Shown here: positions 2,364 to 33,746 of the stretch, one piece after another
How positions within the stretch are numbered: position 1 is the stretch's first letter
How the letters are laid out: each line of letters starts with the position of its first letter
IMG/VR virus record: IMGVR_UViG_3300002835_000103
Location: 18,536 to 82,535 of that record
Origin: a virus
Direction: 5' to 3' (one strand)
Length of the DNA: 64,000 nt
Program-made: the position numbers and the translations under genes
Notes under the pieces: model-generated
Told to the model about the DNA's origin: nothing
Seen by the model: the letters and a program-made list of their open reading frames with translations, nothing else
Databases searched by the model: none

Positions 2364-3791
2364 TTATACTAATTGAATAAACGCAACACGATATGTTCCG
2401 GGGTCGTGTGTTGCTGTACCACCCGCAACCGTAACTGTGTGCGTATGACTTACGCCTACACTTTGATGGCCGGTTTGGGTTGTTCTAACTCCACTACCTA
2501 CTACTTGCGCAGTAGCATGTTGGTGAACCCAATCCCCATACGCTCCGCTTGATGAAAAAGTAAGCGTATTCGAAGTCTCAACCGCTTGGTCCGACGCTGA
2601 TGTGGAATATCCTAAAAAATATCCTCGCATGTCGACAGTATTATTCGCGCCATCACACAATTTCCAATAAGAAGGCAATTCAGATAATGTGCCGTCATAC
2701 ATAACCATAGTACTTCCAAATGCAGGATCTGCAGTTGCGGCCACCCACATTTTCATTAGTTTACCTTTTATTGAATCTGGGGTAAATGTGCATGTTACAT
2801 CGTGGTTATGATTTTGTCCTGTTCCTGAAGCTACATTATTTACACCCGATCCGGCACTAGAAGAACTTCTTACTCCGCCCTGTATGTGATCGTGTTGACC
2901 GTTTGTTCCCGTTGTCCCGGATACGCTCGCAGGAACTGCGGCCACCTCTGCCACCCCTGTAGAAACTCCGCGAACATATCGGTTATATGTTGTTCCAAGT
3001 TTCTGGGTCCAACCATTTTTATTTGAAGAATTAATATGTATTGTATTGGATGGGAATGTTGTTTGATTACTGGATGCTCTTAACAATGTAACATTGCCGG
3101 TATGTGGTCTGGCATTGGTAACAGTTGCGGGGGCAATCGTTAAATCATGACTATGTTCTCCTGCAGGATTAGCAGCTATACCGGTTATTGCCCCAGCATT
3201 TATACTTGAATTAAATTCATACCCAGATGTTTGTGTATGTGACCCAGCTAGCCCCAATGAAAATGTATACGATACATTTGTAGCTGGGGAAGTACTTGTT
3301 CCTATTTCTGCTTGCGTAGTTGTACCTTGTAGATATAAATTATCTGCTGCGGAATATCTAGGCCATGACGCATTGCTTGGATCGGACCCATTGTATAAAA
3401 TAATTGTGCCGGCAGGTATAGTTGGATTTAATGTTGTAACTTGATTACTCACAACTCCGGTTTTTGATCTACCTAATTTATTATATGAATAAACAGTAAA
3501 AGTATAAGTTGATGCTGGAGTTAAATTCTCCATAGTGATTGTTGCGCTTGCAATAGTTGTTACAATACTTACATTTGACCCAGTATTAGATGTTGCAGAT
3601 ATTTCAAACCCTTCGGAGAAAGTATATCCGTCGATATTTGTAACACTATAACTTAAAACTACATTAGATAAAGCAGGCGAACTTGCAGTAATAGTACCAG
3701 TTATGCTAGGCAAACCAATCTCATTGGGATCACCCATTAACTGAGCTTTGCCCGTTATACTTATATTCGATGACGTAATTTGTAACGACAT
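2364..3791 (-). CDS. Tail fibre protein with Fn3 domain and tail-collar-like modules
   Basis: 475 residues. Residues about 26-122 form a fibronectin type III-like domain (SYSVTNIDGYTF...LTPASTYTFTVYSYNKLG). After it comes a phage collar-like stretch beginning IPAGTIILYNGSDP, a Ser/Thr/Gly-rich His-containing shaft, and a second collar-like stretch (MVMYDGTLSELPSYWKLCDGANNTVDMRGYFLGY). Such collar repeats occur in short tail fibres and receptor-binding tips. The N-terminus (MSLQITSSNISITG) resembles the short tags of the adhesin genes upstream. The protein is probably a virion fibre or fibre tip. Confidence 0.7.
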   Translation of the reverse strand: MSLQITSSNISITGKAQLMGDPNEIGLPSITGTITASSPALSNVVLSYSVTNIDGYTFSEGFEISATSNTGSNVSIVTTIASATITMENLTPASTYTFTVYSYNKLGRSKTGVVSNQVTTLNPTIPAGTIILYNGSDPSNASWPRYSAADNLYLQGTTTQAEIGTSTSPATNVSYTFSLGLAGSHTQTSGYEFNSSINAGAITGIAANPAGEHSHDLTIAPATVTNARPHTGNVTLLRASSNQTTFPSNTIHINSSNKNGWTQKLGTTYNRYVRGVSTGVAEVAAVPASVSGTTGTNGQHDHIQGGVRSSSSAGSGVNNVASGTGQNHNHDVTCTFTPDSIKGKLMKMWVAATADPAFGSTMVMYDGTLSELPSYWKLCDGANNTVDMRGYFLGYSTSASDQAVETSNTLTFSSSGAYGDWVHQHATAQVVGSGVRTTQTGHQSVGVSHTHTVTVAGGTATHDPGTYRVAFIQLV

Positions 3792-3836
3792 TATTCTATC
3801 TTTATTGTTTTCTAAAATTCATGAGTATAACAATTA

Positions 3837-4736
3837 TCATAACTTAGTTAATCGCACTGCACCCTGCGCCCAGGTTGTTACCAACGTGCCAGTATTTTCT
3901 CTCACAATATTAGATGCGATTGGATTAACATAAGAATTGGGTGAGCTGGTATTTAAACTATCGTATCCACCTGCAGGACCAACCGAATCATCTGTACCAT
4001 TTCCACCACCGAACCCACCATATGTGGTTTGGTTGTTATACCCTGCTCCCGTGCCATTTATACTTTGATTTTTCCAATTAGTATTGAATCCTGTTCCGAC
4101 TGTTCCATCTGCTGAGCTTGAAGCAGTTGCAGGAGTTGAAAATCTTCCTTCACGTTGTCCTAGACCGCCAGCTGCAACTAATAATGCTGTCATATCACCA
4201 GCTGAAAAGGTCGAACTTCCGCTAGATGATTTTGCAACAACAGTAAATCCTCCGCCAGCCCCGCCCGCAAAATCCAAGCTACCCGAATTTCCACTTGCGC
4301 CCGCGCCTCCTATTGTTATCCAAAGTACATCTCCAGAGTTTAACGTAAAATCTCCTTGTACCGCAGATCCTACGACAGACGGTTTATCAGTCGGTCCCCC
4401 GGATCCACCTTGCGATTTTATACGCCAGGTACCGGTTTCTGGAATTGTAAAATATATGTAACCAGCCGCGGAAGGTATTTTAATATATGTGGCAGCAACC
4501 ATTGCATCATATGCTCCGGTTTGAGATGTTGAATTAAAATACCCATATATCTCTGCAGCAGTTTGTCCGGAAATAGGAGTAGTATCATTTGGACCGGAAG
4601 TTGTCCTACTTGAAGATACTGTTATTGGACTAGAATAAACGTATAAACCTGAGGGTGCAGGTGCTCCTGGCGGAGGCGTCTCACCGGAGGTTATTCTTCC
4701 GGAAAAACTAACATTATTTAAAGTAAATCTTGCCAT
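3837..4736 (-). CDS. Glycine-rich fibre-tip-like protein
   Basis: 299 residues. A short beta-strand tag (MARFTLNNVSFSGRI) is followed by a Pro/Gly linker, a Ser/Thr region, then a glycine-rich domain (GGAGASGNSG, FAGGAGGGFTVV, YGGFGGGNGTDD). The pattern matches glycine-rich domains seen in phage and bacterial surface proteins, where glycine-rich strands can stack as polyglycine II helices. It differs from the other three glycine-rich genes in lacking their EYLVVAGG opening and their shared C-terminal end. Likely an exposed virion protein; receptor binding is inferred. Confidence 0.65.
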   Translation of the reverse strand: MARFTLNNVSFSGRITSGETPPPGAPAPSGLYVYSSPITVSSSRTTSGPNDTTPISGQTAAEIYGYFNSTSQTGAYDAMVAATYIKIPSAAGYIYFTIPETGTWRIKSQGGSGGPTDKPSVVGSAVQGDFTLNSGDVLWITIGGAGASGNSGSLDFAGGAGGGFTVVAKSSSGSSTFSAGDMTALLVAAGGLGQREGRFSTPATASSSADGTVGTGFNTNWKNQSINGTGAGYNNQTTYGGFGGGNGTDDSVGPAGGYDSLNTSSPNSYVNPIASNIVRENTGTLVTTWAQGAVRLTKL

Positions 4737-5223: not shown

Positions 5224-6015
5224 TTATTTAAGTCCCAATTCTTTACGAATCTTTGTGGCAGAGATTGAATGTGTGGCATCATCAAACACTTCTTGTTCAA
5301 TTTTATATCCAACATCTCGACCATATGTAATGTTTACAATATTTGGAACAACCTGAATCTCATATTGTCCCTGATATAATGTATCAAGATCTCGTCTAAT
5401 GTAGCTCTTAACCTGTTCGATAGCAAAGGGATTGGAACCATTCCAACCTTGGCAATCTCTGATCTGAATAACAACCTGTCCGGTCTTGGCAATTGATCTT
5501 TCGAACAATGCTCGGTGTCCAGGGTGCCAAGGTTGCCAACGACCTAGCATCTGTACTGTTTCTTTTTGCCAGTCAAATACTGGTCTGCGTCTGTTATCAT
5601 AAATGTGAGCCACAATAAACTCTGCCCACTTCTCTGCATTTTGTTCTGTTATTCTAAAGTCATATACATCTGGCGGCACAAATGCCTTGTTGGTATCTTC
5701 AAAGCGGCCTTTTTCAATAGTATCAACCCAGACAGTCCAGTCTGCTTTGAAATTGTTTCGCATCTCGGCCAAAGGTGCAACGAAATCGCAAATAACATAA
5801 TCAGTTGTCATGCCATCAGCAAGTTCTCGCATACGCAAACTTTGACGAATACGACCTTCTCGACTGAAATCCCAATCATTGTATTTTTTACGAACATCAT
5901 CAGCATTGAGCCAAGAAACTGTTTTCTTTTCTCTTTGCAGGTATTCTAAAATATATTGGGAAAGATATGTCTTGCCCGCACCTGGTAAACCCATTACTAA
6001 AATTCTCTGTGTCAT
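5224..6015 (-). CDS. APS kinase - nucleotidyltransferase fusion (mini PAPS-synthase-like)
   Basis: 263 residues, two domains. Residues 1-135 match adenylylsulfate kinase: Walker A GLPGAGKT (9-16), the NADDVRKKYNDWDF segment corresponding to DGDNVR...GF, and VDT near 97-99. APS kinase makes PAPS from APS and ATP. Residues 150-263 are an HxGH-type nucleotidyltransferase: GRWQPWHPGH (158-167) and ISATKIR (251-257), the same two signatures that NMN adenylyltransferases and ATP sulfurylases use. A kinase plus HxGH fusion recalls eukaryotic PAPS synthase, but the second domain's substrate cannot be told from sequence. Sulfotransferase genes at 17-20 kb would use PAPS. It lies among fibre genes and may have its own AATAAATA late-type promoter. 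Confidence 0.75.
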   Translation of the reverse strand: MTQRILVMGLPGAGKTYLSQYILEYLQREKKTVSWLNADDVRKKYNDWDFSREGRIRQSLRMRELADGMTTDYVICDFVAPLAEMRNNFKADWTVWVDTIEKGRFEDTNKAFVPPDVYDFRITEQNAEKWAEFIVAHIYDNRRRPVFDWQKETVQMLGRWQPWHPGHRALFERSIAKTGQVVIQIRDCQGWNGSNPFAIEQVKSYIRRDLDTLYQGQYEIQVVPNIVNITYGRDVGYKIEQEVFDDATHSISATKIRKELGLK

Positions 6016-6075: not shown

Positions 6076-7227
6076 TTAATTTGTAATAGATAGCATATTT
6101 GCTCCGGCTGCAACACTGTACCATGTTGTAGACGAACCAACTTGTACTGGACTGGATCTATGTGTAGTATTGCCTAAACCAAGTGAGCCGGATCCATTTG
6201 CGCCCCATGTCCATAATGTACCATCGGTTTTGATTGCAGCACTAGTAAGATTACCAGCGGAAACCATTGACCAATTTGTTAGTGCGCCAACCTGTACTGG
6301 GCTAGATTTGCTGATAGTAGTGCCGTCACCTAAATTGCCGTAAGTAGTATTATATCCCCATGACCATAACGTTCCATCTGTTTTTATTGCTAAGGTATAA
6401 CCGTCACCACCATCAATACTTGACCACGTAGTCAATGCGCCAATTTGTACTGGACTGGATCTATATATAGTAGTGCCGTCACCTACATTGCCGTAATAAT
6501 TGTAGCCCCAGCTCCATAAGGTGCCGTCTGTTTTAATGGCCGCGCTGGTGGACGACGCCGCGGCTATCTTTGACCAAGTTGTTAGTGCACCAATTTGTTT
6601 TGGACTTGAATAATCTGTGGTATTACCCAAGCCTAATCGGCCAGAGCCACCACTACCCCAAGCCCACATGGTACCATCTGTTTTGACGGCTATGGTATGC
6701 AGAGAGCCGCCAGCAATTTTTGACCATGTGGTTAAAGCACCAATCTGTACTGGACTTGATCTGAATGCGGTATCACCTAACCCCAATTGCCCCATGCCAG
6801 TGCCATAATTTCCGCCCCATGACCACAAGGTACCATCTGTTTTAATGGCCAGGCTGTGACTATAGCCTGCAGCAATACTCAACCAAGTAGTTAAAGCACC
6901 AACTTGTACTGGGCTAGATACTCTACCAGATGGATATGTGCCAACTGGTTCGCCATTGCCCAATTGCCCAAATTGATTATATCCCCAGGTCCACAAGGTG
7001 CCATCAATTTTTGTTGCCATGCTGTACTGACCGCCTGTGGCAATCTGTGACCATGTGGTTAGTGCGCCAATCTGCACAGGACTAGATCTATCAATAGTAG
7101 ATCCGTCACCAACTGCGCCGTAGGCATTATACCCCCATCCCTGTAGGTAATATACTGGCGGAATTGGAAAGACTGCTTGCGCGCTAACGTCGCCGACGAA
7201 ATTTAAGCCTGAAAAAGTAAATGCCAT
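6076..7227 (-). CDS. RCC1-repeat beta-propeller protein 1
   Basis: 383 residues: a tag (MAFTFSGLNFVGDV), a short PIPP hinge, then seven RCC1-type blades of about 50 residues. Each has the RCC1 pattern of H/A..A(I/V)KTDGTLWxWG...G.(L/V)G.G(N/D)TT..SSP.Q(V/I)G. The first blade opens with LQGWG where its paralogues have LWSWG, and the blade-1 and blade-5/6 turns read VGDGSTID or VGDGTTIY. Seven blades close a propeller. RCC1 propellers bind proteins or glycans; in this setting the protein is probably an exposed fibre tip. It is the last gene of the tandem RCC1 array. Confidence 0.8.
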   Translation of the reverse strand: MAFTFSGLNFVGDVSAQAVFPIPPVYYLQGWGYNAYGAVGDGSTIDRSSPVQIGALTTWSQIATGGQYSMATKIDGTLWTWGYNQFGQLGNGEPVGTYPSGRVSSPVQVGALTTWLSIAAGYSHSLAIKTDGTLWSWGGNYGTGMGQLGLGDTAFRSSPVQIGALTTWSKIAGGSLHTIAVKTDGTMWAWGSGGSGRLGLGNTTDYSSPKQIGALTTWSKIAAASSTSAAIKTDGTLWSWGYNYYGNVGDGTTIYRSSPVQIGALTTWSSIDGGDGYTLAIKTDGTLWSWGYNTTYGNLGDGTTISKSSPVQVGALTNWSMVSAGNLTSAAIKTDGTLWTWGANGSGSLGLGNTTHRSSPVQVGSSTTWYSVAAGANMLSITN

Positions 7228-7239: not shown

Positions 7240-8361
7240 TTAATTTGAGATTGCCAGGATCACGTAGTCTGTGTTCGTAACACTAATCCACGTAGTGCGT
7301 GCGCCAATTTGTTTAGGGCTTGAATATGCTGTAGTATTACCTAAACCCAATGTGCTATTGCCACCGGTACCCCATGACCACAATGTACCATCTGTTTTAA
7401 TTGCGTGGGCGGTGTAGCCTTTACTACTAACACTTGACCAAGTAGTCAATGCACCAATTTGAACCGGACTAGATCTACTTGTAGTATCTCCTACCCCAAG
7501 GGCACCTTGATAATTTCTTCCCCACGACCACATTGTGCCATCGGTTTTAATGGCATATCCGCTTTCTGAACCTGCATTAATCGTTGACCAATTAGTTAGA
7601 GCACCAATTTGTTTTGGGCTTGAATATGCTGTAGTATTTCCTAAACCAAGTCTACCATGTGCATTTGTTCCCCACGACCACATGGTACCATCTGTTTTAA
7701 TGGCCATGCTGTAGTATAATGCAGAAACATTTAACCAAGCTGTTAGAGCACCAACTTGTACTGGACTAGATCTGTTATTAGTATCTCCTAAGCCCAACTG
7801 ACCGTTAGTATTGCTTCCCCACGACCATAAGGTACCATCTGTTTTAACGGCCAGGCAATGATATGTTCCACCAGAAATATTTAGCCAATTGGTTAATGCA
7901 CCAATCTGTACTGGACTGGATCTGTTATTAGTATCTCCTAAGCCTAATGATCCTTGACCATTTCCGCCCCAAGCCCACAATGCGCCGTTTGTGTTAATAG
8001 CAACACCACCATTAAATCTAGCGGATATCTTTGCCCATGTAGTTAGAGCACCAATTTGTTTAGGACTAGAATACCGTGTGGTATTACCTAGGCCTAAATG
8101 TCCCGAATCGTTGTAACCCCATGTCCACATGGTACCATCGGTTTTAAGGGCTAGACTGTAAAGATATTGCCCAGCAGTACTACTCCAATTAGTCAATGCC
8201 CCAACCTGATTCGGACTAGATCTACTTGCGGTATCGCCTAGCCCAAGTTGCCCAAAGTTCTGGTATCCCCATGACCATAAGTAAAATTCTGGAGGAGCGG
8301 GATGAGTAGTTGTGAGGTTAAGACCGGTTATTCCGCTTATGCCAGATAAAGTAAATGCCAT
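7240..8361 (-). CDS. RCC1-repeat beta-propeller protein 2
   Basis: 373 residues. Tag MAFTLSGISGITGLNL, hinge HPAPP, then EFYLWSWG and seven RCC1 blades. Six carry the KTDGT(L/M)WxWG strand; blade 3 is modified to INTNGALWAWG. The turn between blades is mostly LGLGDTxxRSSP or LGLGNTTxYSSP. The last blade ends in an isoleucine/valine-rich strand (DYVILAISN) instead of the usual HSMAISN. No signal peptide or enzyme motif is present. Likely a virion adhesin that swaps with its neighbours. Confidence 0.8.
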   Translation of the reverse strand: MAFTLSGISGITGLNLTTTHPAPPEFYLWSWGYQNFGQLGLGDTASRSSPNQVGALTNWSSTAGQYLYSLALKTDGTMWTWGYNDSGHLGLGNTTRYSSPKQIGALTTWAKISARFNGGVAINTNGALWAWGGNGQGSLGLGDTNNRSSPVQIGALTNWLNISGGTYHCLAVKTDGTLWSWGSNTNGQLGLGDTNNRSSPVQVGALTAWLNVSALYYSMAIKTDGTMWSWGTNAHGRLGLGNTTAYSSPKQIGALTNWSTINAGSESGYAIKTDGTMWSWGRNYQGALGVGDTTSRSSPVQIGALTTWSSVSSKGYTAHAIKTDGTLWSWGTGGNSTLGLGNTTAYSSPKQIGARTTWISVTNTDYVILAISN

Positions 8362-8377: not shown

Positions 8378-9526
8378 TTAATAGTAACCGATTGCTGCAG
8401 AGTGATAAAAAGTACCGGCAGCGGCATTTGTCCAAGCTGATAATGAACCTACTTGTGTTGGACTAGATCTATCTAAAGTATCTCCTAGCCCAAGATTACC
8501 TGTACTTTGATATGTATCACCCCAAGACCATAGTGTGCCATCTGTTTTAATTGCCAACGTAAAATACGAGCCCGAGTAAACGTTTCCCCAATTAGTTAAT
8601 GCACCAACCTGTACTGGACTAGATCTATCTGTAGTATTGCCTAACCCTAATCGTCCATCTGCACCGTAACCCCATGACCACATGGTACCATCTGTTTTAA
8701 TGGCCATATGATAATAATTACCAGCAGAAACCTTAGACCAATTTGTAAGGGAACCTACCTGTACTGGGCTAGATCTATGTGTAGTATCACCTTGGCCGAG
8801 TTCTCCATAAAAATTACTTCCAGTTGTCCATAATGTACCGTCTGTTTTAATTGCGGCCAGATGATATGGACCTGCAGAAACTGTTGACCAAGTTGTTAAA
8901 GCACCAATCTGTACTGGACTAGATCTATCTGTAGTATTACCTTGACCTAATTGTCCGTAGGTATTTTTACCCCATCCCCACATTGTACCATTGGTTTTAA
9001 TTGCATGAACGGTTCTATAATTGCCAGCTGAAACTTTTAACCAATTTGTAAGGGAACCTACCTGTACTGGGCTGTCTCTATTTGATTCATCTCCTAATCC
9101 CAATGCACCTTTATAATTATTTCCCCATGCCCACAATGTTCCGTCTGTTTTAACTGCGGCAGTGTGATAACCTCCACCGTCAAAACTATCAGCATTGCCG
9201 GCCCAATTAGTTAATGCACCAACTTGTTTTGGACTTGAATAAGTTGTAGTATTACCCAGCCCCAATATTCCAGATACACCGTATCCCCATGTCCATAATG
9301 TACCATCGGTTTTAACCGATATTTTATGATAACCTCCGGCAGCAACTCTTAACCAATTAGACAATGCGCCAATTTGCACTGGGGTAGATTTATCAATTGT
9401 AGTTCCGTCACCTAGTGCACCATATCCACCATCACCCCAACTCCAAAGGTAATACCCCGGAGGAGTGGGTTGAATTATGTTAATTGTTACCCCTGCGTAT
9501 CCGCCGCCTGAAAATGTAACTGCCAT
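8378..9526 (-). CDS. RCC1-repeat beta-propeller protein 3
   Basis: 382 residues. Tag MAVTFSGGGYAGVTINI and hinge PTPP, then YYLWSWG and seven blades. One inner blade has TLWTTGSN where all others keep WxWG, so one tryptophan of the propeller core is lost. Blade 3 contains a short insertion (GNADSFDGGG). The C-terminus is HSAAIGYY, unlike the SN ending of most paralogues. The position inside the late array and lack of catalytic residues suggest a structural or receptor-binding role. Confidence 0.8.
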   Translation of the reverse strand: MAVTFSGGGYAGVTINIIQPTPPGYYLWSWGDGGYGALGDGTTIDKSTPVQIGALSNWLRVAAGGYHKISVKTDGTLWTWGYGVSGILGLGNTTTYSSPKQVGALTNWAGNADSFDGGGYHTAAVKTDGTLWAWGNNYKGALGLGDESNRDSPVQVGSLTNWLKVSAGNYRTVHAIKTNGTMWGWGKNTYGQLGQGNTTDRSSPVQIGALTTWSTVSAGPYHLAAIKTDGTLWTTGSNFYGELGQGDTTHRSSPVQVGSLTNWSKVSAGNYYHMAIKTDGTMWSWGYGADGRLGLGNTTDRSSPVQVGALTNWGNVYSGSYFTLAIKTDGTLWSWGDTYQSTGNLGLGDTLDRSSPTQVGSLSAWTNAAAGTFYHSAAIGYY

Positions 9527-9553: not shown

Positions 9554-10681
9554 TTAGTTACTGATGGCCATGCTGTGAAAATAACCTGCGGCAACACTTG
9601 ACCAATTAGTTAAAGCCCCAATTTGCACCGGACTAGATCTATCTGTAGTATTTCCTAAACCCAATTGACCCGTATTATTAAAACCCCATGACCACATGGT
9701 ACCGTCTGTTTTGATGGATAGGTTGTGATATTCACCGGCATCAACACTTGACCAAGTGGTTAACGCGCCAATTTGTGTTGGACTAGATCTATTTGCGGTA
9801 TCGCCTAAACCCAATCGCCCCGCATAATTTCTACCCCATACCCACATGGTACCATCTGTTTTAATGGCCAAGTTATGATATTGACCAGCAGCAATATTTA
9901 ACCAATTAGTTAAAGATCCAACTTGTTTTGGACTAGAATAGTATGTCGTATTACCTACCCCCAATTGCCCAAAATTATTTTTACCCCATAACCACATGGT
10001 TCCATCTGTTTTAATTGCCGATGTGTGCTCATAACCTGCAGCAATATTTAACCAATTAGTTAAAGATCCAACTTGTTTTGGACTAGAATAGTATGTCGTA
10101 TTACCTAGGCCTAATTGCCCTTTACCCCCAATACCCCATACCCACATGGTACCATCTGTTTTAATGGCCAAGTTATGATATTGACCAGCAACAATATTTG
10201 ACCATGTGTTTAATGCACCAACCTGTACTGGACTAGATACAGATGTAGTATTACCTAGGCCTAATCGCCCGGCGGACCCGTTACCCCATACCCACATAGT
10301 ACCATCTGTTTTGAGCGCCAGATTGTGTTGACCACCTGCACCAATTTTTGCCCAGGTAGTTAATGCACCAATTTGTACTGGATTTGAATAATTTGTGGTA
10401 TTACCTAAACCTAATTGACCAAGGCTACCCGATCCCCAAGACCATAGTGTACCATCTGTTTTAATGGCCAAGTTATGATATTGACCAGCAGCAATATTTA
10501 ACCAATTAGTTAAAGCCCCAACTTGTACAGGACTAGATCTATCGGTAGTATTGCCTAATCCTAATTGACCTGAATTATTTCTGCCCCATGACCACAGGTA
10601 TTGCGGAGGAGGTGGCGGCGGAGCTGGGCATACTAGATTAAACCCGCCCCTTGTTGAAAAACCTGAAAAGGTAAATGCCAT
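9554..10681 (-). CDS. RCC1-repeat beta-propeller protein 4, with recently duplicated blades
   Basis: 375 residues from the chosen ATG, which gives the array's standard opening MAFTFSGFSTRGG. A longer reading frame adds 18 residues upstream, but these overlap the end of the preceding gene and match nothing. A six-proline hinge is followed by seven blades. This gene has the most regular blades of the set: neighbouring copies are identical over more than 50 bases with 150-base spacing, a sign of recent duplication or gene conversion. Probable fibre-tip adhesin. Confidence 0.8.
   Translation of the reverse strand: MAFTFSGFSTRGGFNLVCPAPPPPPPQYLWSWGRNNSGQLGLGNTTDRSSPVQVGALTNWLNIAAGQYHNLAIKTDGTLWSWGSGSLGQLGLGNTTNYSNPVQIGALTTWAKIGAGGQHNLALKTDGTMWVWGNGSAGRLGLGNTTSVSSPVQVGALNTWSNIVAGQYHNLAIKTDGTMWVWGIGGKGQLGLGNTTYYSSPKQVGSLTNWLNIAAGYEHTSAIKTDGTMWLWGKNNFGQLGVGNTTYYSSPKQVGSLTNWLNIAAGQYHNLAIKTDGTMWVWGRNYAGRLGLGDTANRSSPTQIGALTTWSSVDAGEYHNLSIKTDGTMWSWGFNNTGQLGLGNTTDRSSPVQIGALTNWSSVAAGYFHSMAISN
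9842..10112 (-). repeat. Near-identical 150-bp blade repeats inside one RCC1 gene
   Basis: Bases 9901-9956 and 10051-10106 are the same with exactly 150 bases (50 codons) between them, and 9841-9889 recurs at 10141-10189. The period is one blade and keeps the frame, so blades could be gained or lost without a frameshift. Confidence 0.8.
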
Positions 10682-21710: not shown

Positions 21711-21718
21711 TATTTATC
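21711..21718 (-). promoter_or_regulatory. Late-type promoter variant (GATAAATA)
   Basis: GATAAATA on the minus strand in the 40-base gap before the oxygenase-like gene. It differs in one base from the T4 late core, and its 35-base distance to the ATG is like that of the exact copies. Confidence 0.45.
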
Positions 21719-24141: not shown

Positions 24142-24513
24142 TTAGCTTATATCCTCATAACTGCAAGTTACGTGAAGAACATTTCCAGTATCTGCAGTTG
24201 CCCCTAAACTTGTATTTTCTTCCAAGTAATATTGACTGCTTTTATCTATAACATTTAATGTACTGTTTCCAGGAACCGTTGTCCGGCCAACAATATTAAA
24301 TGCATTGCCACTCAAGCTAGCTGCAGAATAATAACTTATTGTTACATTTGCAGACGTTGAAGTGTAATTTGAAACGTTCAATACATTTATCTTTAAACAT
24401 TTGCCAGAACTAGCGGCATTGTTTAGTATAGAAGTTGCAGTTATAGTTGTTAAGTTTGCTCCCGCTGTTTTACCATTGATTATTGTTGCGCCGATTATGT
24501 TTGGTGCTGCCAT
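24142..24513 (-). CDS. Small virion-like beta-sandwich protein
   Basis: 123 residues with no catalytic motif. Alternating short strands (NVTISYYSAASL, TTVPGNSTLNVID, NVLHVTCSYEDIS) suggest a beta-sandwich. Its size and place, directly downstream of the 1787-residue fibre gene and one base from it, match the 109-111-residue proteins at 30924, 33756 and 38837. These may be fibre-associated collar or joint proteins. Function is inferred from context only. Confidence 0.55.
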   Translation of the reverse strand: MAAPNIIGATIINGKTAGANLTTITATSILNNAASSGKCLKINVLNVSNYTSTSANVTISYYSAASLSGNAFNIVGRTTVPGNSTLNVIDKSSQYYLEENTSLGATADTGNVLHVTCSYEDIS

Positions 24514-24514
24514 G

Positions 24515-27500
24515 TTATCCTCCGAATATTAATGAATAGCCCACTGCTGCAGCTGCGCTTCCGCCTGCGCCTCCGCTACCAACAGTAGTCCAACCTGATG
24601 AAGTGTATACAACCAACGCGTTTGCGGTTGTGTTATAAACTGTATCGCCTTGTAATGCAGTTGCTAAAGCATTAGTATTAGAATAATTTGCAAATCTTAT
24701 TGGCGTTGAAGCCTGTACTCTGCCGGTCGATTGTGGCGATAATAAAATATTACCAGATGTTGATATTGTTAAATCACCAAATCCATTAATAATTCCTGCA
24801 GTATTGCCAGAACTTAATGTTACAACAGATGAATTTGCACCTGTTGCAAGAATAATATTTCCGCCGGATGTAATATTAACATTACCCGCGGAGAAAATTG
24901 TTCCACCAGCTGCGCCTGTACCATTGGCATAGAATGCGTTTGCTATTACGTTACCGGTGTTAATGTTGCCGGTATAAGTTATTAGGAACGCGGCAACATT
25001 GGCATTGGCAAATTGACTACCTTGTGGGTTTGCTGCAAGATAAGCAATAACATTTGAAACAACTCTTGCATTTGTATAATATAAGTTACCACTTGAAGCA
25101 AGTTCTGCAACATTGGCAGTTGTTAAATTAGCCTGCGTAACTGACCCACCGGCTGATATACCAGTAACCGTTCCTCTAAATGTTATCGGACTGTTGACAA
25201 AAATGTTACCGCCAGCCAAATTCAAATTACCTGTAGCACTTAACAATAAGTTACTAGATGTCGATAATTCTGCAGAGCCTGTACCTGTAGCAATAAATGT
25301 ATTTGCAATTATGTTTCCGCTTGCAAGAACATTTGAAGCTGTTAAATTAATGGTATTATTTTGAGCAATAATGTTCAAATTACCGGTTGAATTTAATGTG
25401 CCGGACGTTGCTGAAGGTGAAATAACTGTGTTAGCTATAACATTACCTGCGGAAATATTACCGGTATATGTTGTTAAGAATGCACTCACATTTGCATTAC
25501 TATAACTTCCGCTTGTAGGATTTGTTAATAGATATGCTGCAACATTGGCATTACCATATGTACCGCCTTGTGGGTTTGCCGCAAGATAAGCAATAACATT
25601 TGAAACAACTCTTGCATTGGTGTAATATAGGTTGTTTAATTCTGTTACATTTGCCGTTGTTAAATTAGCCTGAGTAACCGATGCACTTGCAATACCCGTA
25701 ACCGTTCCTCTGAATGTTATAGGGCTATTGACAAAAATGTTACCACCTGCCAAATTTAAATTGCCGGTCGCGCTTAATAACAAATTGCTTGAAGTTGAAA
25801 GTTCTGCGGAACCTGTACCTGTAGCAGTGAATGTGTTAGCAACAATATTGCCAGATGCAAGAACAGTATTTGCAGTTAAATTAATTGTGTCACCGGAAAC
25901 AATGTTCAAATTACCAGTTGAATTTAATGTGCCAGATGTTGCAAACGGTGAAATAACTGTGTTAGCAATAACATTGCCAGCATTAATATTGCCGGTATAT
26001 GTTGTCAGGAATGCGCCGACATTAGCATTACCAAAATTACTTATTATTGGATTTGCCGTTAAATAAGCAGTAACATTAGATAACACACGAGCATTTGTGT
26101 AATATAAATTGCCACTTGCGGCATTTTCATTTACATTTGCAGTGTTTAAATTAGCAGTTAATGCATAAGATGATAGTACTCCAATAACATTAGAATAAAC
26201 TCTTGCATTTGTGTAGTATAGATTTGAACCTTCAGCAATACTAGAAGTCGTTAAGGTTAACCCTGTTAATCCTCCTCTTAATACCAGATTACCATTAACA
26301 AAAACATTTGGAGCAGTTAAGTTCAAATTACCGGCTGCACTTAATAATAAATTACTTGTGGATACTATTTCACCGGAACCTGCACCTGCTGATATAAATG
26401 TATTTGCAACAATGTTGCCTGATACCAATACGTTGGGCGTGGTTAAATTAATTGTACCCACCGCAGTAATATTTAAATTGCCAGTAGATGTTAGTGTAGC
26501 TGATGTTGCCGTAGGAGAAACAAAGCTGTTAGAAATTATATTTCCTGCAGAAAGATTGCCCGTATATGTTGTTAAGAATGAAGCAACATTGGCATTACTA
26601 AATGATGAAGATGCTGTAGGAGCAGCCCAGAATAAATTGCCTGTGCCATTTGTTTGCAGTATATACCCGGTCACCCCATCGGTCTTTGGCCATGCTTGCC
26701 CATCTAATATAATTCTACCTGTGCCGTTTGCAACCAATTCTATGTTGGAATTTCCGGTAGTTGATATAGATAGAACACCCACGTTGTCTATTATGCCGCC
26801 GGTTAAAATTAAGTTACCTGCAGCAATGTTACCAGTGTATGTTGGCAATGCCGCTTCAATATTTGATAATACTCGAGCATTGGTATAATATAAGTTTGAA
26901 CCTTCGGCAATGCTTGATGTTGTTAGTGTTAATCCAGTTATTCCGCCTCTTAGTACTAAATTGCCGTTAACAAAAACATTCGATGATGTTAAGTTAAGAT
27001 TACCGGCTGCACTTAATAACAAGTTACTTGTGGATGCAACTTCGCCTGAGCCTGCACCGGTCGATATAAAATTATTTGCTACAACATTACCTGACACCAA
27101 TACGTTTGGTGTTGTTAAATTAATTGTTCCGGCCGCAGTAATATTCAAATTACCCGTTGATGTCAATGTTGCTGAAGTTGCGGTTGGCGATACAAAACTA
27201 TTGGCAATTACATTACCGGCACTTAGATTGCCAGTATAAGTTGTTAAGAAAGAACTCACATTGGCATTGCCAAAACTAACAGTCGCAGGATTTGCTGCTA
27301 AATATGCAATAACATTTGATACTACTCTGGCATTGGTATAATATAAGTTTGAACCTTCAGCAATGTTTGAAGTAGACAATGCTGATAATGCGCTTATAAC
27401 ATTAGAGTAAACTCTTGCATTCGTGTAGTATAAGTTTGAACCTTCAGCAATGCTTGATGTTGTTAAAGTTAAGCCTGACAGAGCACCTCGTAATACTAAA

Positions 27501-29878
27501 TTGCCATTAACAAATACATTTGAAGATGTTAAGTTTAAATTACCAGCTGCGCTTAATAATATATTGCTTGTGGATGTAAGTTCTGCAGAGCCTGAGCCGG
27601 TTGCAATAAATGTATTTGCTACAATATTGCCTGACACCAACACATTGGTTGTTGTTAAATTAATTGCACCTGCCGCAGTAATATTCAAATTGCCGGTAGA
27701 TGTTATTGTTGCCGCTATTGCAGTAGGTGACAGAATTGTATTTGCAATTACATTACCTGCACTAATGTTACCGGTGTATGTTGTTAGGAATGAAGCAACA
27801 TTGGCATTGGCAAATGATGATGCAGGTGCTGCCCAAAATAAGTTGCCTGTACCATTTGTTTGTAGTACATAACCATTAATGCCATCGGTATGTGGCCATG
27901 CCTGCCCATCTAATAAAATTCTGCCATTACCTGCCGCAGATAATTCTATGTTGGAATTTGAAGTGGTTGCAATTGTCAATACACCAACATTATCTATTAT
28001 TCCACCTGTCAATATTAAATTACCTGCAGCAAGATTGCCGGTGTATGTTGATAGGAATGATGCAACATTGGCGTTACTAAAACTACCACTTACCGGATTT
28101 GCCGCAAGGTAAGCAGTAATATTTGATAAAACTCTGGCATTGGTATAGAAAATGCTATTGCCGGATTCAATTACGTTGGCCGTATATAGATTCAACCAAG
28201 TTGTTGCAGAAATATTACCCGCACTAATTAAATTGGCGCCTGTAAACGAACCACCGGAACCACTGCCTGTTATAATGTTATTGGCAACAATATTGCCCGA
28301 TGCAATAACATTCGGAGATGTCAAATTAATTGCACCTAACGCAGTAATATTCAAATTACCTGTTGATGTTATTGTTGCAGCTATTGCTGTAGGTGAAATA
28401 ATTGTATTGGCAATAACATTGCCTGCAGTAATATTACCGGTGTATGTTGTTAGAAACGCACCTACATTTGCGTTACCATATGTACTAATTGCGGGATTTG
28501 CTGCCAAATATGCAATAACATTTGATACTACTCTGGCGTTGGTGTAATATAAATTGTTTAATTCCGCAACATTGGCTGTGGTTAAATCTACTACATTGGC
28601 TTTTAATCTTAAATTAGACTCAACTTGAGCATTAACTCTGGCATTTGTATAGAATAGATTGTTTGTACCTTCAGTAATACCATTTGTATTGCCTGAGAAT
28701 GATGATGCACCTACTCCCGTTAGAGAAGAACCATCACCAAAGAATTTTGTTGCGATTACATTACCAGATGCAATAACATTGCCGGAATTTAATGTAATAT
28801 TTCCAGTGCCCGTGATATTAACATTACCGGTAGAAGATAATGTAGCAGAGCCTGTACCTACTGATATAAATGTATTTGCAATTAAATTACCGCTTGCAAT
28901 AACATTTGTGGAATTGATATTGACTGCACCTGCGGCAGTCATTGTAATGTTTCCAGTAGATGTAATCAACCCAGCAGATGCGCTTGCTGATATAAATCCA
29001 TTTGCTATTACATTACCAGTAACATTTAGATTGCCTGTGATATTATTAACATTTACGGAAACGCCAGTCAAATTAGCAGAGATTTGACCATTAGCAGCGA
29101 TAATAATGTTATTACCCTGTAATGACGGCATTAATGCTATAACATTGGATGCTACTCTGGCATTTGTATAGTATAAATTATTACCTTCAGCAACATTGGC
29201 AGTTGTTAAATCAACTACATTGGCCTTGGCAGCCAATAATGATACCACATTGGCAAAAACTCTGGCATTGGTAAAATAAAGATTACTTGCAGATTCTGTT
29301 ACATTTGCAGTAAAAATTCCAGAATAACTATTTGCTGTTAAAGGTCCGTTAACAACAATACTTGATCCAGTTAAAGTAACGACGCCGGTTGCGGATATTG
29401 ATACGTTGCCGGTGGATGATAATAATCCAGAGCCTGGGCCGGTTGATATAAAAGTGTTGGCAATAACATTGCCAGTTGCGATAACATTTGTAGAGTTGAT
29501 ATTGACTGCACCCGCAGCAGTCATGGTGATGTTGCCAGAGGATGAAATTAAGCCAGCAGAAGCACTTGTGGAAACGAAACCATTGGCAATTACATTGCCG
29601 CTAACATTCAAGTTGCCAGTAACAGAAGAAACACTTACCGCAGACAGGTTTGCTGAAATAAGACCATTTGCTGCAATAGAGATATTATCGCCGGCAACAA
29701 GAGCGCCGATTGCCCTGGCGTTACTGAAATATACATTACCAGAACTTGTGTTTCCCGATTCAATAACATTACCGGTAAATATACTTTGGAAGGAAACATT
29801 GCCGGTGTTGGCACCCAGCAATTGGCCGTTACTTCCTCCATTTCCACTGATTAAACTTACATCTATTTTGCGAGCCAT
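24515..29878 (-). CDS. Giant fibre protein (1787 residues) with NLYYTNARV repeats
   Basis: Low-complexity Asn/Ser/Thr/Ala/Gly-rich fibre. Two alternating repeat types fill it: (SN)LYYTNARVxSNVIAYLAANP and TGNISAGNVIANTxxSP...ITSTGNLNI...NLTxxNVxxSGN. Copies of DGQAWPxTDGxxGYxLQTNGTGNLFWAAP appear twice. The N-terminus MARKIDVSLISGNGGSNGQLL resembles fibre heads; the C-terminus ends GSGGAGGSAAAAVGYSLIFGG. The regular strands suggest a trimeric beta-rich shaft. An AATAAATA late-type promoter lies 29 bases upstream. Long tail fibre assignment is inferred. Confidence 0.75.
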   Translation of the reverse strand: MARKIDVSLISGNGGSNGQLLGANTGNVSFQSIFTGNVIESGNTSSGNVYFSNARAIGALVAGDNISIAANGLISANLSAVSVSSVTGNLNVSGNVIANGFVSTSASAGLISSSGNITMTAAGAVNINSTNVIATGNVIANTFISTGPGSGLLSSTGNVSISATGVVTLTGSSIVVNGPLTANSYSGIFTANVTESASNLYFTNARVFANVVSLLAAKANVVDLTTANVAEGNNLYYTNARVASNVIALMPSLQGNNIIIAANGQISANLTGVSVNVNNITGNLNVTGNVIANGFISASASAGLITSTGNITMTAAGAVNINSTNVIASGNLIANTFISVGTGSATLSSTGNVNITGTGNITLNSGNVIASGNVIATKFFGDGSSLTGVGASSFSGNTNGITEGTNNLFYTNARVNAQVESNLRLKANVVDLTTANVAELNNLYYTNARVVSNVIAYLAANPAISTYGNANVGAFLTTYTGNITAGNVIANTIISPTAIAATITSTGNLNITALGAINLTSPNVIASGNIVANNIITGSGSGGSFTGANLISAGNISATTWLNLYTANVIESGNSIFYTNARVLSNITAYLAANPVSGSFSNANVASFLSTYTGNLAAGNLILTGGIIDNVGVLTIATTSNSNIELSAAGNGRILLDGQAWPHTDGINGYVLQTNGTGNLFWAAPASSFANANVASFLTTYTGNISAGNVIANTILSPTAIAATITSTGNLNITAAGAINLTTTNVLVSGNIVANTFIATGSGSAELTSTSNILLSAAGNLNLTSSNVFVNGNLVLRGALSGLTLTTSSIAEGSNLYYTNARVYSNVISALSALSTSNIAEGSNLYYTNARVVSNVIAYLAANPATVSFGNANVSSFLTTYTGNLSAGNVIANSFVSPTATSATLTSTGNLNITAAGTINLTTPNVLVSGNVVANNFISTGAGSGEVASTSNLLLSAAGNLNLTSSNVFVNGNLVLRGGITGLTLTTSSIAEGSNLYYTNARVLSNIEAALPTYTGNIAAGNLILTGGIIDNVGVLSISTTGNSNIELVANGTGRIILDGQAWPKTDGVTGYILQTNGTGNLFWAAPTASSSFSNANVASFLTTYTGNLSAGNIISNSFVSPTATSATLTSTGNLNITAVGTINLTTPNVLVSGNIVANTFISAGAGSGEIVSTSNLLLSAAGNLNLTAPNVFVNGNLVLRGGLTGLTLTTSSIAEGSNLYYTNARVYSNVIGVLSSYALTANLNTANVNENAASGNLYYTNARVLSNVTAYLTANPIISNFGNANVGAFLTTYTGNINAGNVIANTVISPFATSGTLNSTGNLNIVSGDTINLTANTVLASGNIVANTFTATGTGSAELSTSSNLLLSATGNLNLAGGNIFVNSPITFRGTVTGIASASVTQANLTTANVTELNNLYYTNARVVSNVIAYLAANPQGGTYGNANVAAYLLTNPTSGSYSNANVSAFLTTYTGNISAGNVIANTVISPSATSGTLNSTGNLNIIAQNNTINLTASNVLASGNIIANTFIATGTGSAELSTSSNLLLSATGNLNLAGGNIFVNSPITFRGTVTGISAGGSVTQANLTTANVAELASSGNLYYTNARVVSNVIAYLAANPQGSQFANANVAAFLITYTGNINTGNVIANAFYANGTGAAGGTIFSAGNVNITSGGNIILATGANSSVVTLSSGNTAGIINGFGDLTISTSGNILLSPQSTGRVQASTPIRFANYSNTNALATALQGDTVYNTTANALVVYTSSGWTTVGSGGAGGSAAAAVGYSLIFGG

Positions 29879-29931: not shown

Positions 29932-30924
29932 TTAAAACGTAATGGATCCTGAACTGGTCCATTGATATATTCTATATCCGCCGGATACTATTACGTTAGG
30001 TGACCCTGTTGTACTTGTTGCTGATGAAAATGTATCTGCATAGCGGATGATTACAGTACCAGAACCTCCGGAACCAGCTATACCAGTTGTCCATCCTAAA
30101 CCTCCACCACCACCGCCGGTATTTACGTTGCCAGATGTTGCACTTGCTGTTCCACTAGCCGCCATAACGCCTGCACCACCACCTCCGGAACCACCATTTC
30201 CAGCAGTAGAGCCACCTTCACCGCCACCGCCACCGCCACCAGCATAATAAGTTGCAGTCCCGGTAATAGAACTAACTGCACCAATGCCGCCATTGCCACC
30301 TGTTCCCGGAGAAGTACCATTTCCGTTTGCACCGACACCTCCCGCTCCGCCACCGCCACCAGCAACATAAATTGTATTAGGACTAGTTCCGCGTGTTCCC
30401 GAACCACCATTATTACCTTGTCCTGCAGTACCTGTTCCACCAGCAATAGTTGTAAAAGAAGCAGCAGAAGAACCACCGCCACCAGAACCGCCATTAGCGC
30501 CAACTGAAACATATGCGCCACCACCGCCGCCGCCTATTGCTGTTACCGTAGTAAATCCAGAACCAGATATACTTGAGTTAGCACCAGAAGCGGCTCGATT
30601 ATTTGTTTGAGTTTGTGTTCCTTGTATTCCAACACCACCTGCGCCAACTGTTATTGTGTATGTAACACTAACGGCTACGTTTGCCGTATTAGTTAGTAAT
30701 CCACCTGCTCCGCCGCCGCCTCCGTCTGCTGAACCTCCTGCTCCTCCGCCAGCAACTACTAGATATTCTACCGTTGAAGTTGGAACAGGTGGCGGGGGCG
30801 GTTCTCCTGCAACTAAAATATTAACACTGACTTTTTGTCTTGCAATGGCACGAAAATTGTTCGCAGATGCAGAAAACTTTTGTGTAGTACTAACTTTTGC
30901 AGCACTATACTTCCGTAAGGTCAT
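29932..30924 (-). CDS. Glycine-rich adhesin-like protein with basic N-terminus
   Basis: 330 residues. A longer, basic N-terminal region (MTLRKYSAAKVSTTQKFSAS...RAIARQK) replaces the short tag, followed by a PPPPPVP hinge, EYLVVAGGGAGG and a large glycine-rich domain, then TGSPNVIVSGGYRIYQWTSS and GSITF. The last 28 residues are nearly the same as in the other two EYLVVAGG proteins. The ATG overlaps the upstream stop by one base. Likely an exposed fibre tip; polyglycine II packing is an inference. Confidence 0.68.
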   Translation of the reverse strand: MTLRKYSAAKVSTTQKFSASANNFRAIARQKVSVNILVAGEPPPPPVPTSTVEYLVVAGGGAGGSADGGGGGAGGLLTNTANVAVSVTYTITVGAGGVGIQGTQTQTNNRAASGANSSISGSGFTTVTAIGGGGGGAYVSVGANGGSGGGGSSAASFTTIAGGTGTAGQGNNGGSGTRGTSPNTIYVAGGGGGAGGVGANGNGTSPGTGGNGGIGAVSSITGTATYYAGGGGGGGEGGSTAGNGGSGGGGAGVMAASGTASATSGNVNTGGGGGGLGWTTGIAGSGGSGTVIIRYADTFSSATSTTGSPNVIVSGGYRIYQWTSSGSITF

Positions 30925-31253
30925 TAGGTAACCTCAGTGCCGAACAGATTAAAACTAATATTTGTGGTATTTGCATATACTGTTACAACGTCTGTGGCAG
31001 CCAATGTTACACCGATTGTTAGCGATATTGAATCCAAAGCAGGAACAGTTGCATCAAAGGCAATATAATGTTTGTTTGCCAGCGTTTCACCTGCAGGTCT
31101 TACTGCAATGCGATATGCTGCTGCACTGGCATTTTGATTACAAACTGATATTGTAGAAGTAACTGCACTTGTGCCCGACGGAACAGTATACAGTGTATTT
31201 GCTGTACCTGCTGAAGGACTGATCTGTCCCAATACTTTATATGTTATCGCCAT
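30924..31253 (-). CDS. Small virion-like protein, paralogue of 33756-34085
   Basis: 109 residues: AITYKVLGQ, then LYTVPSGTSAVTSTISVCN, then RPAGETLANKHYIAFDA and TLAATDVVTVYANTTNISFN. More than half of the residues match the protein at 33756. It has a beta-sandwich-like pattern and no enzyme motif. Similar small proteins lie near fibre genes in T4-like aquatic phages. Probably a fibre-associated structural protein. Confidence 0.6.
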   Translation of the reverse strand: MAITYKVLGQISPSAGTANTLYTVPSGTSAVTSTISVCNQNASAAAYRIAVRPAGETLANKHYIAFDATVPALDSISLTIGVTLAATDVVTVYANTTNISFNLFGTEVT

Positions 31254-31262: not shown

Positions 31263-31622
31263 TTATTCTGTTGTTGTAACAACTTCTACCCAATTTTGAA
31301 CTTCTTCGTTCCATGCATAAATTTTATCATCATCTGGTTTTGCTATAGGTGCTTCCCATAAGCAAGTATTTTCATTTAATACCCAAGAATTAAATGGTGT
31401 TGGTGGTATAAATGCATCTCTTGTTGCATCATACCTATAACCAATACCAGCATAATTTTTTCGTAATGGAGTACCCCCATTGATGTGAACGCCTGCATGA
31501 GTGTTATAGCTTGTTTGTACCCAGCTTGCGGGATCACCAAACAAACCAGTATCAATTACATCTTGCTCGACAACGATAACCTGTGTAACGATACCGTTTT
31601 CTACTTTTGCGAAATGGCTCAT
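31263..31622 (-). CDS. Conserved small phage protein near fibre genes
   Basis: 119 residues. SHFAKVENGIVTQVIVVEQDVIDTGLFGDP at the start (in two parts: HFAKVENGIVTQVIVVEQ and TGLFGDPASWVQTSYNT) and RKNYAGIGYRYDATRDAFIPP in the middle are typical of a family common in marine T4-like phages. Tryptophan-rich end (WNEEVQNWVEV). No membrane segment. The role is unknown; it is usually found with structural genes. A GATAAATA late-type sequence lies 25 bases upstream. Confidence 0.6.
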   Translation of the reverse strand: MSHFAKVENGIVTQVIVVEQDVIDTGLFGDPASWVQTSYNTHAGVHINGGTPLRKNYAGIGYRYDATRDAFIPPTPFNSWVLNENTCLWEAPIAKPDDDKIYAWNEEVQNWVEVVTTTE

Positions 31623-31646
31623 TTTAAAAAACTCCTATTTTCCTGT

Positions 31647-31654
31647 TATTTATC
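31647..31654 (-). promoter_or_regulatory. Late-type promoter variant (GATAAATA)
   Basis: GATAAATA on the minus strand, 25 bases before the ATG at 31622, partly overlapping the stop codon of the upstream glycine-rich gene. One base off the T4 late core. Confidence 0.4.
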
Positions 31655-32612
31655 AGAATGTTATTGAACCGGATGAGGTAAATTGATATATTCTATATCC
31701 GCCAGATACTGTTACGTTAGGTGAACCTGTTGTAGCTGTTGCTGCATTATATGTATCTGCATAGCGAAGGATTACAATTCCAGAACCACCAGCACCGCCA
31801 GAAAATCTTGATCCTGAATAAGCACCGCCACCACCACCCCCACCTCCAGAATTAGTGCCGCCGGCGCCACCGGCGCCACCGGTTGTTCCACTTGCTCCTC
31901 CGTTACTTCCGCCTGCACCGGATAATCCTGAACCAGAAGAACCTCCCCCACCTCCCCCCCCACCGCCGCCGCCGCCAGCAGAAAGTCTATAACCGCTACC
32001 GCCACCGCCGCCAGCATAATATGTTGCAGTTCCGGAAATATCAGTTGATGTACCGGAACCGCCGGTACCGCCAGTAGGGGATGCACTTGCAGGCCCCGCA
32101 TTACCTCCAACAGTATTAGAGCCACCTCCACCTCCACCAGCACCATCGATAGAACCATTTAATCCACCTCCACCATTATTGCCTTGACTAGGTGATGTTG
32201 ATGGCGTGTTTCCTGCACCGCCTGTTGTTGGTATAGTAGGAGATAAACCGTAACCTGTACCACCACCGGATCCACCAGAAGCGCCATTTAATCCAACTGA
32301 GGTAGTTCCATAACCCCCGCCAGTTGAGGTAATATCTCCAAATACAGAATTTGATCCCGAAATACCGTTGCCTCCGCCAGAGCCACCGGACCCACCACCG
32401 CCAACGGTAACAGTAATAGCAGAACCAGATGTTACAGAGTAACCAGCCGCAGTTCTGTACCCACCAGCACCGCCACCGCCACCATCAGAGCCACCACCAC
32501 CTCCACCAGCAACTACTAGATATTCAACTGTTGGGGTAGGAGAAGGAGGAGGCGGAGTAATTGTTAGGGCTACCCCTGATCCGATTGAGATACCATTGAA
32601 TGAAATTGCCAT
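31653..32612 (-). CDS. Glycine-rich adhesin-like protein with array-type tag
   Basis: 319 residues. Tag MAISFNGISIGSGVALTI and a PPPPSPTP hinge, then EYLVVAGGGGGG, a glycine-rich core containing runs of nine or more glycines, and the shared end TGSPNVTVSGGYRIYQFTSS plus GSITF. It lies next to an RCC1 gene with a similar hinge. The tag groups it with the MAxTxSG tags of the RCC1 array. Likely a tip adhesin; the receptor is unknown. Confidence 0.68.
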   Translation of the reverse strand: MAISFNGISIGSGVALTITPPPPSPTPTVEYLVVAGGGGGGSDGGGGGAGGYRTAAGYSVTSGSAITVTVGGGGSGGSGGGNGISGSNSVFGDITSTGGGYGTTSVGLNGASGGSGGGTGYGLSPTIPTTGGAGNTPSTSPSQGNNGGGGLNGSIDGAGGGGGGSNTVGGNAGPASASPTGGTGGSGTSTDISGTATYYAGGGGGSGYRLSAGGGGGGGGGGGGSSGSGLSGAGGSNGGASGTTGGAGGAGGTNSGGGGGGGGAYSGSRFSGGAGGSGIVILRYADTYNAATATTGSPNVTVSGGYRIYQFTSSGSITF

Positions 32613-32627
32613 TTTTTTACTTTTAAT

Positions 32628-33746
32628 TTATGACGAGATTGCAGTTGAATGTCTATATCCTGCAGAAACATTCAACCAATTAGTTAAAGCACCAATTTGT
32701 ACTGGACTAGATCTATTTGTGGTATTACCTTGACCTAATTGACCGTAGCTATTACCGCCCCATGACCACAGTGTACCGTCGGTTTTAACTGCCGTAGTAT
32801 GGAATTGTCCCGCATCAATTTTTGACCAAGTAGTCAATGCTCCAACTTGTACAGGGCTAAATATATCAGTAGTATTACCTAAACCCAATCGGCCTGTCTC
32901 GCCTGAACCCCAAGCCCATAATGTACCATCTGTTTTAATGGCTACATTATGCTGATATGCTGCTTCTATAATTGACCAATTGGTCAACGCACCAACTTGT
33001 GCTGGACTAGAACCACCGCCCGATCCTCCATCTTGTCCTGCATTGTTTCTACCCCAAGCCCACAATGTACCATTGGTTTTAATGGCAATCGTATGATGGT
33101 CTCCGCTAGTACAGCGCAACCAATTATTTAATGCGCCAACTTGCACAGGACTAGATCTATAAAATGTATTGCCCTGGCCCAACTGCCCATAAAAATTATT
33201 TCCCCATGACCACAGGGTACCATCGGTTTTTACGGCAAACGACGATGAACCGCCGGTGCCAATACTCGCCCACGTGGTTAATGCGCCAACTTGTTTGGGA
33301 CTTGAATATGCTGTAGTATTACCGAAGCCAAGTTGTCCCGAGCCATTGGTTCCCCATGCCCACATGGTGCCATCTGTTTTTATAGCCAAACTATGCTCGC
33401 GGCCGCTGGCCAGACTACTCCAACCGGTTAATGCGCCAACTTGTACTGGACTAGATCTTGCGGTTGTAGTATTATCCCCCAATTGTCCACTGGCGTTATT
33501 ACCCCAACTCCATAATGTACCATCTGTTTTTATAGCTGTATTATGATACCCACCGCCAGCAACACTTAACCAATTACCCAGGGCACCAATTTGCGTGGGG
33601 CTCGATCTATTTGTGGTATCTCCCACGCCCAATCTCCCGTGGTAATTTACTCCCCATGACCATAAGTAAAATTCTGGTGGCGGAGGCAGATCAGGTGTCT
33701 CGTATGAAAATGTTCCACCAAATGTTAGATTTTGAAATGTGATCAT
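32628..33746 (-). CDS. RCC1-repeat beta-propeller protein 11
   Basis: 372 residues. Tag MITFQNLTFGGTFSYE and a DLPPPP hinge, then EFYLWSWGVN and seven RCC1 blades. One blade has an all-glycine turn (AGQDGGSGGGSSPAQVG) replacing LGxGNTT. It lies far from the main array, between a glycine-rich gene and a small structural gene, which shows that the RCC1 module has spread within the fibre region. Confidence 0.8.
   Translation of the reverse strand: MITFQNLTFGGTFSYETPDLPPPPEFYLWSWGVNYHGRLGVGDTTNRSSPTQIGALGNWLSVAGGGYHNTAIKTDGTLWSWGNNASGQLGDNTTTARSSPVQVGALTGWSSLASGREHSLAIKTDGTMWAWGTNGSGQLGFGNTTAYSSPKQVGALTTWASIGTGGSSSFAVKTDGTLWSWGNNFYGQLGQGNTFYRSSPVQVGALNNWLRCTSGDHHTIAIKTNGTLWAWGRNNAGQDGGSGGGSSPAQVGALTNWSIIEAAYQHNVAIKTDGTLWAWGSGETGRLGLGNTTDIFSPVQVGALTTWSKIDAGQFHTTAVKTDGTLWSWGGNSYGQLGQGNTTNRSSPVQIGALTNWLNVSAGYRHSTAISS

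Follow-up and report, generated by a model that had tools for sequence, protein, structure and literature searches.

Why would one phage carry a long series of genes for RCC1 propellers and glycine-rich proteins, most of which begin with the same short peptide? This question is raised by a T4-like phage of the freshwater/marine type, represented by the uncultured virus record IMGVR_UViG_3300002835_000103 (82,535 bp), in which we analysed bases 18,536–82,535 (64,000 nucleotides; hereafter, the window). Every gene discussed there lies on the minus strand and is named below by its lower coordinate. In our opinion, the cluster is probably a set of alternative, swappable binding heads (adhesins) of the virion. 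The system of swappable binding heads is real and general, with adhesion as our best inference of its role.

The window contains 11 intact RCC1 genes of seven blades each, with a period of about 50 residues; blade counts confirm the 11 propellers and 77 blades listed in a preliminary description of this DNA. The three window proteins scanned match the Pfam RCC1/RCC1-like domain (PF00415/PF25390) with E values from 1e-60 to 1e-81, and the combination of seven repeats of about 50 residues above the Pfam cut-off with a seven-bladed propeller fold makes these proteins RCC1-like. The fold was predicted by AlphaFold2 with a high predicted local distance difference test (pLDDT) score of 93.1 and a predicted template modelling score of 0.89, the nearest solved fold being that of UVR8 (template modelling score, TM, 0.84). 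The four glycine-rich genes of the same description stand in part: 14129, 29932 and 31653 exceed the curated cut-off of Gly_rich_2 (PF21722), whereas 3837 is a weak member (17% Gly) that has no Pfam match at 1e-3 and matches only PHROGs of function unknown. Gene 2364, with which the described interval started, had to be removed from the panel, being neither RCC1 nor glycine-rich. Upstream, beyond the window, the panel continues with a twelfth RCC1 gene (L009:8232-9368) and with a glycine-rich gene, the fifth (L009:9381-10277), which is below the PF21722 cut-off (21.3 vs 24.3). Four other metagenome contigs carry the identical panel at 99.97–100% identity, and an assembly artefact or misassembly is therefore excluded. 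In L022, L023 and L135, the number of blades encoded by one RCC1 gene is 14 to 21, equivalent to two or three tandem propellers per protein.

The peptide shared by most panel genes, which we call the type-1 tag, has the form MAxTxSGxxxxG and is followed by a proline run (PPP). Tag peptides of the panel include MLPFARMVKYGN and MAFTFSG...PPP. The mutual similarity of type-1 tags is far above that of shuffled copies (mean best score 40.1 vs 22.5 +/- 1.3), and the best pair formed by an RCC1 and a glycine-rich gene scores 57, with a null maximum of 36. The tags of RCC1 gene 15024 and glycine-rich gene 14129 are alike, and they agree at the DNA level too. The common tag proposed previously is therefore real on most genes, although 21717 and 22929 bear a second type (SASGIFNPxxQMQAKRAGxWP) and the tag of 29932 is odd. 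The type-2-like tags of relatives (GIW..Q...A..AGTWP) stand in front of RCC1, Gly_rich_2 and Lcl_C modules and of another beta-propeller. Heads of the Lcl_C (DUF1566) family follow type-2 tags in L156, L162, L165, L171 and L183, and an SBBP beta-propeller does so in L167; therefore, the repertoire of heads exceeds RCC1 and glycine-rich modules. The type-2 tag profile has no relative in PDB, and a 35-residue tag of this type gave no match in the phage collection.

Exchange of heads behind a conserved tag takes place in relatives of this phage. A scan with sulfotransferase 18036 retrieved 79 further loci, all but two of which (77/79) carry RCC1 genes, and the gene immediately upstream of the sulfotransferase is RCC1 in 74 of the 80 loci with a complete neighbour. 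Loci with identical propellers were collapsed first (70 to 49 distinct). Among these, pairs with sulfotransferases at least 95% identical in amino acid sequence reach a synonymous codon identity of 82% for the sulfotransferase and 86% for the tag, and the value drops to 48% for the propeller; in more diverged pairs the propeller value is 37–43%. When sulfotransferase nucleotide identity is 0.85–0.95, propeller identity stays below 0.72 in 103 of 105 pairs, the background for random propellers being 0.60 +/- 0.07. The alignments break where the tag ends and close to the stop codon. L060 and L079, for example, are 97% identical over the 76-bp tag, and the match resumes at the base after the stop codon. 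The syntenic L029 and L041 share 84% identity from the upstream gene to codon 26 of the next one; beyond that point, a glycine-rich head in one phage stands opposite an RCC1 propeller in the other, and identity returns at the stop codon. The reverse arrangement was also found: L103 and L105 have one propeller (97.8% over 1,024 bp) and unrelated tags, and L032 and L038 a common head (90.5%) with different tags. A 124-residue, two-blade RCC1 remnant (L041:9562-9936), whose tag is nearly that of window gene 6076, adjoins the swapped slot and may be a relic of exchange.

These natural swaps agree with the preliminary description, which had postulated a common tag with an exchangeable module; its suggestion of swapping by recombination holds between lineages and fails among the four near-identical copies. 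Rapid shuffling within the phage was ruled out, as those contigs show no rearrangement at all, and head swapping is a process between lineages. In-place hypermutation or a diversity-generating retroelement was rejected as the main source of diversity, because the heads of relatives differ at synonymous sites too and no reverse transcriptase domain (RVT_1) occurs in the 82.5-kb record.

The propellers differ from one another in a restricted manner. Blade identity in this phage is 57.5% within a protein, compared with 58.1% between proteins at the same position and 56.6% at other positions; the blade framework is near-invariant and variation is confined to a few columns. The dimer interface of UVR8 involves E43, D44, D96, D107, R146, E182, R234, R286, R338 and adjacent tryptophans (PMC5091643). 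These residues align to blade columns 6, 8, 9, 19, 39 and 40, which are the six of highest entropy among 50 (permutation p=2e-5 for the overlap, even when restricted to loops on that face); the entropies were known before the UVR8 mapping, and the list of interface residues came from the cited publication. Ranked by entropy in relatives, the interface columns take the top five places, and the remaining one of the six is tenth. The variable loops, as judged by strand order, are all on one face, rich in Tyr, Ser, Asn and Gly, and the conserved loops GALTT and KTDGT are on the opposite one, from which the tag is predicted to enter the first strand. The AlphaFold2 model of a glycine-rich protein was poor (pLDDT 55.6), giving weak Foldseek matches (Bxb1 tail tip and Pam3 fibre, E >= 0.1), and no sequence match to a PDB structure was found.

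A connection of the panel with the tail, also postulated in the preliminary description, is supported by gene context, as the panel lies downstream of fibre/baseplate genes that have homologues in T4-like cyanophages. In the relative L025, each of five RCC1 domains follows a long N-terminal region, and both regions scanned match tail-fibre PHROGs. RCC1 heads are thus both encoded with and fused to tail-fibre/baseplate proteins. For other phages, several RCC1 paralogues were reported from one virion preparation: six 'DNA condensation' proteins of phAPEC6, three of W70 and one of GAP32 have been detected in virions. The predicted presence of the panel in virions is in line with this co-detection in coliphages having the same tag-plus-module build. 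Nearly all paralogues of 121Q, phAPEC6 and UB begin with MLPFARMVKYGNIAP, encoded by DNA near-identical over ~40 bases; a glycine-rich protein among the genes of these phages carries it as well, and it is present in 57 phage records, in up to 15 places per genome.

The proposed mechanism would operate as follows. Each gene encodes a short N-terminal tag of about 15–30 residues, the proposed anchor, followed by a hinge rich in proline and a head that can be exchanged. Most heads are seven-bladed RCC1 propellers, and some are glycine-rich domains. The tag would dock at one common site of the tail fibre or of the baseplate, and the propeller would be suspended by its conserved face, so that the opposite, hypervariable face would be turned outward to bind host-surface ligands. 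Diversity would arise from homologous recombination, phage-phage and slot-slot, with the conserved tag and flanking genes as crossover arms and the heads replaced whole. We infer where the tag docks, that the heads bind receptors and that this phage displays them; the published virion mass spectrometry comes from other phages.

Several results weigh against this mechanism. Residues 1–20 have pLDDT 45–58 in the AlphaFold2 monomer, in which the tag is predicted to be disordered and forms no domain; on this ground a structured common tag domain was rejected, and no docking partner was found. The blade-column test reveals the use of a common face and is silent on the identity of the ligand. Detection of phAPEC6 RCC1 proteins was based on low peptide counts (2–5 unique) and leaves them unplaced within the virion, and the coliphage RCC1 genes form a block away from recognised tail genes. 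Collapsing to distinct heads under-counts conserved pairs, and the four near-identical copies of the panel are unshuffled.

Other explanations may be considered. The products could sit on the virion surface and attach it loosely to particles, mucus, glycans or host mats, or could be whisker decorations of capsid or tail, rather than determinants of receptor choice. Many paralogues of low abundance would suit such accessory decorations, and phAPEC6 bears uncharacterised hairy appendages; however, a hypervariable face and wholesale head replacement indicate specific, changing targets, and we find this option unlikely. It is also improbable that the heads act inside the cell as decoys or inhibitors, a panel made during infection against host defence proteins. 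Propellers of the RCC1 type can inhibit proteins tightly, as BLIP-II, which inhibits beta-lactamase, demonstrates, and variability with swapping would fit an arms race within the cell as well, but the virion detection in coliphages, the tail-fibre fusion and location, and a conserved tag that a soluble inhibitor does not need all speak against it. Condensation of the genome in the capsid by DNA-binding inner-body proteins, suggested for phAPEC6 and repeated in annotations, agrees with the occurrence of some RCC1 proteins in virions and with a family name derived from a eukaryotic nucleosome binder, yet it is very hard to reconcile with genes that follow, or are fused to, those of tail fibres, with a single hypervariable face and rapid head replacement, and with similar tags on glycine-rich and Lcl_C heads, the DNA role having been transferred from eukaryotes and never put to test in phages. 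For the propellers that other papers call 'DNA-condensing', a role as exchangeable heads that grip the host is more likely, although DNA condensation is the published guess for coliphage RCC1 proteins; no proposal of an adhesin role was found in the open-access literature on RCC1 and tail fibres or receptors.

Swappable binding heads would give a function to phage 'RCC1 / DNA condensation' genes, which dozens of cultured phages and many uncultured ones carry. Whole replacement of a propeller head behind a conserved tag contrasts with the usual trimeric fibres; host-range evolution in these phages becomes directly testable in E. coli laboratory strains, and the propeller is a natural scaffold for binders whose variable face is defined. 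A bolder and quite tentative extension would be an antibody-like repertoire: a population-wide pool of interchangeable propellers, each with a Tyr/Ser/Asn-rich hypervariable face, plugged by the tag into a shared virion socket and co-displayed on a single particle as a multi-specific binder array, a design found across unrelated lineages (T4-like freshwater/marine, podo/sipho-like and E. coli jumbo phages).

The genes of the region are listed in the table below. Proteins of ~110 residues lie between the fibre genes (24142, 30924, 33756 and 38837), with similar ones in S-SRM01, L020 and L024; they are candidate tag sockets. Another small protein (xVQVxxGxVxQVWDxxPPxGxxGW...) adjoins RCC1 genes in L017, L020, L021, L029 and L041, and might possibly be an assembly chaperone. 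A fusion of adenosine 5'-phosphosulfate (APS) kinase-like and nicotinamide mononucleotide (NMN) adenylyltransferase-like domains and two sulfotransferases are interspersed among the adhesin genes; a putative phage sulfation pathway, acting on Tyr-rich heads or host glycans, is possible. DUF6445 and methyltransferase genes also occur in the panel (16641-17333, 20624-21169), as at other RCC1 loci.

Table. Genes of the panel and its surroundings (window coordinates)
Position	Strand	Product	Remarks
2364..3791	-	fn3-containing, tag-like start, probable fibre/collar protein	fn3 under cut-off; collar-like end by eye
3837..4736	-	weakly glycine-rich protein, type-1-like tag	
5224..6015	-	APS-kinase-like P-loop domain + NMN-adenylyltransferase-like domain	
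6076..7227	-	RCC1 propeller, type-1 tag MAFTFSGLNFVGDVSAQAVFPIPP	tag near-identical at L041:9562
7240..8361	-	RCC1 propeller, type-1 tag	
8378..9526	-	RCC1 propeller, type-1 tag	
9554..10681	-	RCC1 propeller, type-1 tag	start moved from 10735 to 10681; UVR8-like by sequence
10695..11825	-	RCC1 propeller, type-1 tag	
11841..12974	-	RCC1 propeller, type-1 tag	
12993..14099	-	RCC1 propeller, short type-1-like tag	
14129..15007	-	glycine-rich (PF21722) module; tag MALTISGVRINGALTAVHIP	tag almost the same as in 15024
15024..16166	-	RCC1 propeller; tag MALTISGFTITGNLNAVHIP	AlphaFold2 pLDDT 93, tag disordered
16187..16573	-	small companion (VQVxxGxVxQVWD...GW)	recurs by RCC1 genes in relatives; no family match
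17257..18039	-	sulfotransferase	
18036..19793	-	sulfotransferase with C-terminal extension	anchor of swap analysis
21717..22910	-	RCC1 propeller, type-2 tag SASGIFNPADQMQAKRAGIWP	
22929..24140	-	RCC1 propeller, type-2 tag	
24142..24513	-	small beta-type protein between fibre and panel	no PHROG match
24515..29878	-	giant repetitive fibre protein within panel	
29932..30924	-	glycine-rich (PF21722) protein, odd tag	
30924..31253	-	small protein	matches phrog_1276 and PHROGs of tail fibres
31263..31622	-	companion protein	phrog_7759 (function unknown)
31653..32612	-	glycine-rich (PF21722) protein, type-1 tag	
32628..33746	-	RCC1 propeller, type-1-like tag	
33756..34085	-	small protein resembling 30924-31253	by sequence
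34096..38844	-	giant repetitive fibre protein, upstream of panel	phrog_697, minor tail phrog_2952
38837..39172	-	small protein	phrog_1276
39176..41722	-	tail fibre / baseplate wedge protein	homologues in S-SRM01, P-SSM2
41752..47949	-	giant structural / baseplate-fibre connector-like protein	phrog_697, phrog_677

Among known systems, the branched tail-spike complex of Ackermannviridae equips each virion with several receptor-binding proteins, whose N-terminal anchors are conserved and serve as arms for recombination and whose C-terminal heads vary (PMC11414711). The evolutionary logic of conserved anchor and variable head is the same, but those phages own polysaccharide-recognising spikes joined by Gp10-like XD domains, whereas here a tag of 15–30 residues precedes a propeller or glycine-rich head; Pfam and PHROG scans of the tags (15–50 residues) detected no Gp10-like XD/TD domains, which sets the panel apart from spikes of the Ackermannviridae type. 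Small separate tip proteins with a glycine-rich specificity domain are the Gp38-type adhesins of T-even phages (S16, T2, PP01), which differ in being single in each phage and in having a longer attachment domain; in the Gp38 type this domain binds the tip of the gp37 trimer, and the head is a polyglycine-II sandwich. UVR8, RCC1-like domain proteins and BLIP-II resemble the panel propellers in fold and in the ligand-binding face, yet they are cellular proteins and form no phage arrays. In the cultured Kyanoviridae phage S-SRM01, the order of genes is alike, with RCC1 genes directly after those for the baseplate wedge and the long tail fibre distal subunit, and sulfotransferase, 2-oxoglutarate-dependent oxygenase and glycosyltransferase genes are interleaved with RCC1 genes, as in the single-amplified-genome virus AG-345-E08; both differ in having about three RCC1 genes and other N-termini.

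A close parallel is provided by the Asteriusvirus/Rak2-like jumbo coliphages (121Q, PBECO4, phAPEC6, GAP32) and W70 of Vequintavirinae. The preliminary description knew of no system with this many propeller paralogues, but RCC1-like genes number eleven in phAPEC6, thirteen annotated pieces in 121Q, six in PBECO4 and three in W70. As in the window, many tandem propellers are encoded per genome, a short N-terminal tag is shared (MLEMLNLG in W70), one tagged glycine-rich protein belongs to the array, repertoires differ in part from phage to phage and several products are found in virions. The coliphage arrays are distinguished by their separate gene block, by very divergent blades and by the DNA-condensation label.

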